DNA from: Candidatus Zipacnadum vermilionense
Lineage (GTDB): Bacteria; Armatimonadota; Zipacnadia; Zipacnadales; Zipacnadaceae
Direction of reading: 5' to 3'
DNA length: 64,000 nucleotides
NCBI GenBank assembly: GCA_029821755.1
Contig: JALGSV010000010.1
Location: forward strand, 1-64,000
The notes below the pieces were generated by a model. The model worked only from the letters and a program-made list of their open reading frames with translations, did no database searches and was not told where the DNA came from. A program made the position numbers and the translations under genes. Positions 8,879 through 55,709 of this stretch are shown one piece after another; position 1 is the stretch's first letter; each line of letters begins with the position of its first letter.

Positions 8879-8894
8879 GGGGGTGTCTCCAATC

Positions 8895-8967
8895 GCGTGG
8901 GGCGGGCTTTCTAGCCCGCCCTGGTGGGGGGCGGCAGAGCGCGGGCGGGGAAGCCCGCGCCACGCGG
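8895..8967. repeat. Pair of oppositely oriented REP-like hairpins
   Basis: CGCGTGGGGCGGGCTTTCTAGCCCGCC ... GCGCGGGCGGGGAAGCCCGCGCCACGCG; the outer CGCGTGG/CCACGCG arms make the two units mirror images. Confidence 0.8.
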
Positions 8968-20992: not shown

Positions 20993-22432
20993 ATGCCACC
21001 AATCATCGCCATAATCGGTCGTACCAACGTGGGCAAATCGGCCCTCTTCAACCGCCTGGTCGGGCAGCGGCGCACTATCGTGGAGGACTTCCCGGGAGTC
21101 ACGCGGGATCGCGTGTACTCCGAGATTGGCCTGAAGGGAAAGACGGCCGTGCTGGTGGACACCGGAGGGCTGGTGGGGGCGGAGAACGATGCGCTGATCG
21201 GGCAGGTCAAGGAGCAGGCGGCGCAGGCACTGGCCGAGGCGGACCTGCTGCTGCTACTCTTTGATGGGCAGGAGGGGATCGTGGCGCTGGATTACGAGGT
21301 GGCCGAGGCGGCTCGGCGCAGCGGCAAACCGGTGTTGGCCGTGGTCAACAAGATGGAATCGGGACGGGGGGATGTGACGCAGTTCGCGGAGTTGGGGTTC
21401 GGGCTGCCGCTGGCTATATCGGCGCTGCATGGGAAGGGCGGGGCGGCGCTGGAGGAGGCCCTGGCGGAGATGCTGCCGGAGGAGGAAGAAGAGGAGAGGG
21501 CGGAGGCGCCGCCGGGGGCGGTGTCGGTGGCGATCGTGGGGCGGCCGAACGTAGGCAAGTCGGCGCTGGTGAATGCGTTGCTGGGCCAGCCGCGGATGAT
21601 CGTTAGCGAGATTCCCGGCACCACCCGCGACACGGTTGACACGCTGCTGCGGGCCGGGGAGCAGCAGTACCAGCTAGTGGATACACCGGGCCTGCGGCGG
21701 CGGGGCAAGCGCTCGCAGGGGGTGGAGTTCTACAGCAGCCTGCGCAGCATCAAGGCCCTGCAGCGGGCGGAGGTAGGCGTGGTGGTGTTTGATGCGGGGG
21801 AGGGTCTGACCCAGCAGGACGCGGCGATTGCCCTGGAGGTGGACACGGCGCGGCGGCCGCTGGTCATGGTCGCCAACAAGTGGGACCTGGTACTAGAGCG
21901 GGCCTTTGGTGAGGGGGTGCCTCCCCCCCCTGTGCCCCTCACGGGAGAGGGGGAAGAGATACCTCCCCCCCCGGTCCCCCTGTCTGCGCAGGAGAGGAAA
22001 GTGGCGGAGCGGCTGCTGAGGAAGGATTTCGAGACCATAGCGCGCTCGCGGCTGAGGTTTGCCGCGCAGGCACCGCTGGTCTTCACCTGCGCGCTGACCG
22101 GGGAGAGGGTGGAGGAGATTCTGCCGCTGGCGGCCAAGATCAGCGTGCAGTTCAAGCGACGGCTGGACACCGGCAAGCTCAACCGGGCGCTGGCGGAGGC
22201 CATGGACAAGCACAACCCGCCCACCCGGGGCGGGAAGCAACTGCGCATCTACTATGCGACCCAGGTGAAGGCAGCGCCGCCGACCTTCGTGTTGTTCGTC
22301 AACGACCCCAAGCTGATGCACTTCTCCTACGAGCGCTATCTGCTCAACTTCCTGAGAGATAAGTTCGGCTTCGATATGGTGCCGCTGACCTTGAGGGTAA
22401 GGCAGTCGACGGGGAAAGAGAAGCGAAGGTAA
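20993..22432 (+). CDS. der: GTPase Der (EngA)
   Basis: Two G domains: GRTNVGKSALFNRLVG...DTGG and GRPNVGKSALVNALLG...DTPGLRRRGKRSQGVEFYSSLRS; C-terminal KH-like domain. Confidence 0.96.
   Translation: MPPIIAIIGRTNVGKSALFNRLVGQRRTIVEDFPGVTRDRVYSEIGLKGKTAVLVDTGGLVGAENDALIGQVKEQAAQALAEADLLLLLFDGQEGIVALDYEVAEAARRSGKPVLAVVNKMESGRGDVTQFAELGFGLPLAISALHGKGGAALEEALAEMLPEEEEEERAEAPPGAVSVAIVGRPNVGKSALVNALLGQPRMIVSEIPGTTRDTVDTLLRAGEQQYQLVDTPGLRRRGKRSQGVEFYSSLRSIKALQRAEVGVVVFDAGEGLTQQDAAIALEVDTARRPLVMVANKWDLVLERAFGEGVPPPPVPLTGEGEEIPPPPVPLSAQERKVAERLLRKDFETIARSRLRFAAQAPLVFTCALTGERVEEILPLAAKISVQFKRRLDTGKLNRALAEAMDKHNPPTRGGKQLRIYYATQVKAAPPTFVLFVNDPKLMHFSYERYLLNFLRDKFGFDMVPLTLRVRQSTGKEKRR
21921..21981. repeat. 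In-frame duplicated C-rich element within der
   Basis: CTCCCCCCCCTGTGCCCCT (from 21921) and CTCCCCCCCCGGTCCCCCT (from 21963), encoding PPPPVPL twice. Confidence 0.75.
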
Positions 22433-27589: not shown

Positions 27590-27878
27590 GAGCGCGTGCG
27601 AGAAGTCGCGCCGAGCCCCCCCCCGAAGCCGCCGGGGCTTCCCCCTCCCGCCCTAGGCGGCGCCCAGCGGTGGCACAGCAGTCTCCCCTACTCGATCTCC
27701 CGGACGACGGTCGCCCCTGCCCCTACCTCTCCCTTCAGCCCCTCCGGGTTGGCCAGGTCGAACCATCGCAAGCGGGTGATCCCTTCGCCGTGCGGCGGCG
27801 GACCCCGGCAGGTCCGCAGGCGAGCAGCGGGGAAACGTGCGCTGGACCGCATCCCGGCCCGCCGCGGGGCATCCGCCT

Positions 27879-34089: not shown

Positions 34090-34220
34090 AGTAGACTCCT
34101 GGGAGGCTGTGGGACCGGATAGGTGGGCGGGCCGGATGCTAGCGGGCGGCGCGCTGCTGCGCAACACGCCGTCCTCGTATTCGGCCCCCCCCCGGAGCAG
34201 AGCCAGTGAGAGCCGCCTCC

Positions 34221-40299: not shown

Positions 40300-40673
40300 A
40301 GTGATCACCAGAAGCTGGCCTACCACAGCGGGCCCCGGAACGTGTCCTTCGTCGATCGGGTCGCCTGGGCCTTCAAGTAACTGACGAAGGTACGCAGGTG
40401 ACCGCCCTCCCGCGCCACGGTCGCCACCAGGTGCAGGTGATTCGGCATCAAGCAGTAGGCATAGAGCCGCACGCCACAATGCTCCGCCGCGCCCGGGATG
40501 AGGTCCCAGACCAACCTCGCCAAGTCCCGTCGGTGTGCGAAGGTACACTCTCCGCGATGAGTGCGCACGTTTAGGTGGCACGCGTATCCCGACTTGCCGT
40601 AGACCCAGTCATCCAGGCGCGGTGCGCGGTTCCGACGGCGGGGACGGGGCTTGTCGCGCATGGTCATAGCCAC
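40300..40673 (-). pseudogene. REP-associated tyrosine transposase (RAYT, Y1_Tnp/IS200-like), 3'-disrupted
   Basis: SGYACHLNVRTHRGECTF...GVRLYAYCLMPNHLHLVA (HUH) then LKAQATRSTKDTFRGPLW-TAG-ASFW, with +1 shift DHY; the expected 3' third is absent. Confidence 0.8.
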
Positions 40674-43048: not shown

Positions 43049-43750
43049 TTAGTCCGCCTCCGCCAGAGGGACATCGGGGTCGGCGTCGGGGGGGGCGGCA
43101 TCCAGACCAGGGCCCGGCTCCTCTCCCCCTCTTTCTGGAGAGGGGGCGGGGGGACAGGGGGCGACGGGCGAGACGTCCGTCGTACCGGGAGGCACGGAGG
43201 CTTGGAGGCCAGCGCTACCCGGAGTGGCCACCTTCCGCGTTTGCTGTAGTTCGCGCGCTACCGTGCCCAGGATGCCGTTAACGAACTTGCCGCTTTCGGA
43301 GGTACCGTACTCCTTGGCCAGATCCACCGCCTCGTCAATGGTGGCGCCGATGGGGATATCTCCGAGGTAGAGCAGCTCCGCCATGGCCATGCGCAGGATG
43401 TTGCGGTCCACCACGGGCATGCGCTCGAGGGTCCAGCCCTGGGAGAGGCGGTCAATGCGCTGGTCGATGTCCTCCCGGTGGCTGAGGTACTCCTCACACA
43501 GGGCACGGCCGAACTCACTAACCGCGGGGCGCAACTTGCGGGTCTCCAGCGGGGAGAAACGCCATTCTTCCACCAGCGAGGTGAGGATGTCCTCGGCCTG
43601 GGCCCAAGCTCGGGCCGTGCCGCCCACCCCGGCATCGGAGGCGTACAGCAGGGCCAGGCAGAACTCGCGGCCGCGCCGCCGAGCGCCTGCTCTTTCCCGC
43701 TTGCTGATGGCCGACTGTTCAGGTCGCATGGTGAATGTACAGGTGCGCAT
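43049..43750 (-). CDS. nusB: Transcription antitermination factor NusB with long C-terminal tail
   Basis: RQDFCLALLYASDAG-type N-terminus (RRRGREFCLALLYASD), MAELLYLGDIPIGATIDEAVDLAKEYGTSESGKFVNGILGTVARELQ, followed by an extra Pro-rich tail of about 60 aa. Confidence 0.9.
   Translation of the reverse strand: MRTCTFTMRPEQSAISKRERAGARRRGREFCLALLYASDAGVGGTARAWAQAEDILTSLVEEWRFSPLETRKLRPAVSEFGRALCEEYLSHREDIDQRIDRLSQGWTLERMPVVDRNILRMAMAELLYLGDIPIGATIDEAVDLAKEYGTSESGKFVNGILGTVARELQQTRKVATPGSAGLQASVPPGTTDVSPVAPCPPAPSPERGGEEPGPGLDAAPPDADPDVPLAEAD
43130..43222. repeat. Tandem set of three different palindromic elements inside the nusB 3' coding end
   Basis: CTCTCCCCCTCTTTCTGGAGAGGGGG; GACGGGCGAGACGTCCGTCGTACCGG; GGAGGCTTGGAGGCCAGCGCTACCC. 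Confidence 0.75.
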
Positions 43751-55650: not shown

Positions 55651-55709
55651 ACGCAGGCTTGGAAGCCTGCGCTACCCCAGAGGGCGGGCTGGAAGCCCGC
55701 CCCACGCGG
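55651..55709. repeat. Two adjacent REP-like hairpins
   Basis: ACGCAGGCTTGGAAGCCTGCGCTACC and GGGCGGGCTGGAAGCCCGCCCCACGCGG. Confidence 0.8.

Follow-up and report, generated by a model that had tools for sequence, protein, structure and literature searches.

Why does an essential GTPase of one bacterial species carry an extra peptide, encoded by C-rich DNA, that its counterparts lack? The stretch of DNA analyzed here (64,000 nucleotides of a contig from Candidatus Zipacnadum vermilionense; hereafter, the window) encodes the ribosome biogenesis GTPase Der, into which the original prediction had placed an extra in-frame segment, at 21908-21990, that is missing from canonical Der proteins. The der gene is essential and functions in ribosome assembly. 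The product of the gene scored 484.5 bits against TIGR03594 (curated cutoff 306.7), its best PDB matches were all Der/EngA proteins, and its nucleotide-binding motifs are intact. Since the reading frame is open and relatives lack the segment, the presence of an extra stretch within a complete Der was confirmed.

The extent of the insertion was read from protein alignments with relatives from the genus, the family and the order, and from DNA alignments with two sister species of the same genus (G001 and G002), whose Der proteins are 73% and 68% identical, respectively, to that of the window. The net gain is 20 amino acids (60 nt), located ~10 residues past the second NKWD motif; the added peptide is GEGVPPPPVPLTGEGEEIPPPPVP, with native AF before it and native LS after it. 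In the MAFFT alignment, the Der of the window has AFGEGVPPPPVPLTGEGEEIPPPPVPLSAQERK, G001 has AFGDSDLSPEEQK and G002 has AFEDSDLSPPQRK; taken from the second NKWD to the next helix, the corresponding stretches are NKWDLVLERAFGEGVPPPPVPLTGEGEEIPPPPVPLSAQERKVAERLL, NKWDLVRAKAFGDSDLSPEEQKRAERLL and NKWDLVREKAFEDSDLSPPQRKTAERLL. Both AFGE, ahead of the insert, and LSAQERK, behind it, are native, the latter aligning without gaps with LSPEEQK/LSPPQRK; thus, the predicted segment is real, but its net length is 60 nt and not 83. We did not find the insertion in G001, in G002 or in any relative from the family or the order with a readable alignment row (the rows of L037 and L039, translated on the wrong strand, were left out), and the best pairwise Der matches of the remaining members of the order gave no hint of it. 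The close relatives therefore lack the loop in the ortholog alignment, which the original prediction had proposed as a check. Across the order, this loop differs in both length and sequence, so the element appears to have landed where variation was already tolerated. The 3’ edge of the insert is ambiguous, as 21981-22003 could belong equally well to the hairpin of the second repeat unit or to the original der sequence, resembling both, and no target-site duplication was readable at the site.

The structural context was obtained from an AlphaFold2 model of the protein (mean pLDDT 80), for which the nearest solved structures are Der proteins. Residues 306-331 form a coil (pLDDT 54-71) with helices on either side (297-305 and 332-353). 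In this model the insert sits in a loop of G domain 2, after the G4 motif (NKWD) and before a long helix, in the location where the original prediction had suggested looking. The inserted loop is expected to be flexible, to lie at the surface and to have little effect on Der.

The DNA of the insert is, as predicted, a direct duplication of a C-rich unit (32 nt, 78% identical, 42 nt apart), and each unit contains the C8 tract that had been noted in it (Table 1). Both units belong to a dispersed hairpin family, read on the minus strand. We searched with a covariance model (R1) built from 33 copies of the element, the der copy excluded. The first unit was the top match in the 64-kb window (27.6 bits, E=1.8e-5) and covered model positions 1-48; the second also covered positions 1-48, with 15.2 bits in a search of a 76-base stretch (nhmmer E=0.13). 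When the local 111 bp were shuffled 2000 times with dinucleotides kept, no shuffled sequence reached the profile score of the der segment. Typical copies of the element score ~70 bits, against which the two der copies are decayed; this marks the inserted segment as old and leaves its edges uncertain. Both units carry the variant CCTCCCCCCCC, for which there is one exact match elsewhere in the genome; given this shared variant, local duplication may explain how one unit became two.

Table 1. Positions in the window of the der gene, its insertion and the copies of the element.
Feature	Position	Strand	Evidence
der (engA), frame intact, encoding the 479-aa ribosome biogenesis GTPase	20993..22432	+	TIGR03594, continuous ORF, PDB matches
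Inserted DNA (net +60 nt, 20 aa), approximate extent as judged against the sister species	21908..21979	+	protein and DNA alignments
First element copy, end to end; left stem arm partly shortened, ~5 nt missing	21914..21958	-	covariance model R1, consensus alignment, shuffles
Second element copy, head-to-tail, more decayed; hairpin half overlaps native-like der codons	21956..22003	-	R1, nhmmer
C8 homopolymer, first unit	21923..21930	+	
C8 homopolymer, second unit	21965..21972	+	
Sole other fair element copy in the window, decayed	43120..43164	+	R1, 22.0 bits, E=5.4e-4

The complete element is 48 nt long and consists of a hairpin, CCCCCTCTCC-TGCAA-GGAGAGGGGG, followed by a tail, CAGGGGGTGAGGCTC; across aligned copies, a weak CTCTT flank precedes the 10-bp stem, the 5-nt loop and then CAGGGGGTGAGGCTCCCC. 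A genome search, another of the checks proposed, found copies outside der to be abundant: a 23-nt consensus (GGAGAGGGGGCAGGGGGTGAGGC, up to 3 mismatches) had 123 matches in the whole genome, compared to 0 for the reversed control. Neither of the two outcomes that the original prediction had named as counter-evidence was thus observed. A looser hairpin pattern (CCCCCTCTCC..GGAGAGGGGG, both strands) gave 261 matches, a number inflated by overlaps, versus 19 for its reversed control. Using a profile made from 13 seeds in a sample of 861 kb (20% of the genome), we identified ~79 distinct sites at E<1e-3, that is, ~1 per 11 kb, or ~400 when scaled to the genome. The original prediction had likened the insert to palindromes elsewhere in the window; the family is real, but its bulk lies elsewhere in the genome, and the window holds a single other fair copy. 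In the sample the element occurs mostly alone, and inverted doublets are not its main form: the 79 sites included 4 pairs of neighbours less than 200 nt apart, all 4 in the same orientation.

Among the 33 aligned copies, 94.8% of the stem cells are paired, and one of the 10 stem pairs shows a compensatory change (U-A to C-G, in 6 copies). Covariation and pairing exceeded those of all 500 shuffles, while the remaining pairs vary on one side or by mispairs alone; the covariation support for the stem is thus real but narrow. In the same alignment we found no conserved CGTC beside the stem, nor GTAG, the 5’ flank being unconserved and the 3’ side reading CAGGGGGTGAGGC. Another dispersed family of palindromes, GCGGGCTAGAAAGCCCGCCCCACGCGG, is repeated still more often (its top 16-mer has 27 copies in the 861 kb); 4 of its 26 exact core matches are inside genes, and it was located in contigs C71, C1, C53 and C85 of the genome sample (G000) and in the window at 8893-8967 and 55653-55709.

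Most copies of the element lie between genes (62 of the 93 hits that the profile gave at E<1e-3, in a sample that is ~88% genic according to a simple codon-usage ORF finder), and 26 hits fall in genes, a count in which some palindromes appear twice, once per strand. With duplicates and weak ORFs taken out, and considering hosts supported by Pfam or NCBIfam, we counted at least 12 elements in frame in 11 genes of the 861 kb sample, der included. Besides Der, the hosts are ValS, HolB (DNA polymerase III delta’), thymidylate kinase (C-terminal), a two-domain FAD oxidase, a SF2 helicase (with two elements), a Type ISP restriction enzyme, a PIG-L deacetylase, a polysaccharide deacetylase, BadF (C-terminal) and a ketosynthase. 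All six frames of the consensus element but one can be read without a stop, the exception being closed by the TGA in GGTGAGG. Three peptides recur: PHPLPPLLAGEGE, which comes from the frame that der uses, ASPPGPLSLTGEGEE and PPLLQGEGAGGEA. Relatives without the insert were found for HolB and for both sites of the SF2 helicase, the first of which holds an insert of exactly 20 aa, the same as in der. The ValS insert is missing in other genera, and the same-genus G002 has GGGGCAGGGGGTGGGGC there, which resembles a decayed copy; the picture at the FAD oxidase site is more equivocal, as G002 has extra residues there too. The additional residues of G002 at these two sites (L147 for ValS, L216 for the FAD oxidase) are diverged, which suggests that part of the insertions are older than the split and have decayed since. 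The HolB insert (G000:C71:104234-104360) is composite: behind the C-rich element comes another type of repeat, which encodes ETPGPPTQAGKPALP, and the neighbouring thymidylate kinase Tmk ends in a similar composite (G000:C71:104454-104580). In-gene copies are concentrated in G000:C85:1-22400, where seven elements occur in six genes within ~22 kb.

With E<=0.001 as the cutoff, 64 of 101 genomes had matches to the element, which extend across the order and, more weakly, into the wider phylum. The 123 near-consensus copies of this genome compare with 4 and 8 in its two sisters, 5 in a member of the family and 40 in another member of the order (G017), where many nearly identical copies form inverted pairs ~80 nt apart. 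In G017 the element also forms a tandem array with a period of ~49 nt (C211:4957-5200). Across 41 genomes of the order, the copy number of the element correlated with the number of Y1 transposases (Spearman 0.62, p=1.4e-5), phylogeny being ignored and the copy counts largely saturating near 60. Y1 genes were present in 20 of 21 element-rich and 12 of 20 element-poor genomes (Fisher p=0.009, also ignoring phylogeny), and they occur in element-poor genomes of the family too (3 of 8). One of five Y1 loci (L121), whose translation shows the HUH-type motif MPDHVHL, has an element ~100 nt upstream of its likely start codon; with five loci searched and one element per ~11 kb, this is near chance expectation. 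A relic of a Y1-type transposase, interrupted by two stop codons, lies in the window itself at 40305-40523 on the minus strand (PF01797, E=1.1e-5). Taken as a reasonable inference from these sequence patterns, the element was probably moved by a Y1/HUH enzyme.

The explanation that we favour, with a probability of about 0.88, is that a head-to-tail pair of a REP-like, non-autonomous palindromic element entered der after this species parted from its sequenced sisters, and was retained as a tolerated loop. Transposition would have brought it there, with a Y1/HUH transposase that works on the single-stranded hairpin as the most likely enzyme. Its retention would be owed to the five open frames of the element, to a net length divisible by three and to its having fallen in a variable surface loop. 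The ribosome would then translate it as a proline- and glycine-rich loop, probably disordered, and presumably neutral for Der.

The main competing explanation is that the loop grew on the spot, a GC-rich stretch having slipped or been duplicated in tandem, and that its resemblance to the dispersed element is a coincidence. The two similar C-rich units in direct repeat, the variable loop length within the order and the GC content of the genome (~67%) are all in keeping with such growth. However, the first unit matches the element over its whole length, the two flanks included (GGGG.GCCTC ... GGGGGAAGAG), which no shuffled sequence of the same composition does, and copies of the element are in frame within unrelated genes; we therefore consider local growth improbable. 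An artefact of assembly or binning is by far the least credible explanation. The assembly is fragmented (115 contigs) and repeats can be mis-assembled, but this repeat is shorter than 100 nt, too short to break a short-read assembly, the der frame is intact and continuous on both sides of it, and independent in-frame copies exist at many other loci.

An insertion of the element could also have been followed by domestication, the peptide having acquired a selected role in Der (e.g., ribosome contact or regulation), or its C8 tracts serving as a phase-variation switch. The insert has been retained despite the divergence of Der from that of the sisters, and der has two of these tracts whereas C8/G8 or longer runs number only 38 in the 861 kb sample. 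Nevertheless, the peptide is conserved in no relative and is modeled as a low-confidence coil, and the occurrence of the same peptides in unrelated proteins argues against a role specific to Der. As for the switch, a slip of +1 or -1 at either tract is computed to cut the protein off at 456 or 341 residues, truncating or reframing an essential protein; slippage would thus be expected to harm Der rather than regulate it, and judging from the sequence, regulated slippage at these tracts is unlikely. Altogether, we regard domestication or a switch as very improbable, more so than local growth. The original description of a repeat domesticated as protein sequence holds in that the repeat is translated, but “domesticated” is too strong if it means a functional peptide. 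Runs longer than those of der, C9 homopolymers, are found in the window at 27616-27624 and 34185-34193.

Returning to the insertion itself, its significance extends beyond der. In-frame palindromic inserts are already known, and the der insert is a new example, which extends the phenomenon to another bacterial lineage and to a family without GTAG or CGTC tags. A dozen inserts in conserved genes were found within a fifth of one genome, and most of the inserts checked are missing in relatives, so that the way in which mobile DNA adds segments to proteins becomes directly testable, in terms of tolerance of loops, rate of decay and roles gained. They also call for caution, since a loop in a protein known from metagenomes of such lineages can stem from repeat DNA and not reflect function. 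A bolder proposal is that a tagless REP-like family has recently expanded in a single species and is even now adding sequence to core proteins throughout the genome, in effect as a mobile protein-linker. It draws on the flexible, Pro/Gly-rich loops encoded in the open frames of the element, and on the excess of near-consensus copies over those of the sisters; we see it as speculative and rather doubtful.

Among known systems, Rickettsia palindromic elements (RPEs) are a family of short palindromes with many copies, a good share of which lie in frame within unrelated genes, where they encode a recurrent peptide and are retained in essential housekeeping proteins (PMC10969869, PMC3733652). The comparison with RPEs made in the original prediction is apt in that one repeat is read in frame within unrelated, essential genes. 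The element described here differs in being ~48 nt long, C/G-rich and mostly intergenic. It is not an RPE: RPEs are described as ~150 bp long (PMC10969869) and those of R. conorii end in CGTC (PMC3733652), a tag absent beside this stem.

GTAG/CGTC REPs are hairpins of a few tens of bp, with tens to hundreds of mostly intergenic copies (PMC3733652). Intragenic cases are known in several phyla (e.g., in Opitutus terrae, Thauera and Xanthomonas), in hosts that include tRNA synthetases and DNA replication and repair genes, and many are dimers or clusters encoding 20-30 aa (PMC3733652). The der insert, a dimer of 20 aa, closely matches this description. In contrast to GTAG/CGTC REPs, the element has no such tetranucleotide at the stem, bears a 13-nt G-rich tail and is paired head-to-tail in der, an arrangement rare or absent in most GTAG families (PMC3733652); lacking GTAG beside its stem, it was rejected as a GTAG REP. 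A literature search for the element in Armatimonadetes-like genomes returned no relevant report. Given the missing tags, the G-rich tail and the head-to-tail pairing in der, we regard the element, compared with published families by tag, length and arrangement, as a probable new family with a known kind of behaviour.

REPINs, in Pseudomonas and E. coli, are inverted pairs, and RAYT is their dedicated Y1 transposase, flanked by the element. Unlike in that system, the element is mostly single in the genome of the window, and its link to a transposase is one of co-occurrence. The inverted pairs of G017, the co-occurring Y1 transposases and the hairpin with compensatory changes are all features that it has in common with REPINs and RAYT.
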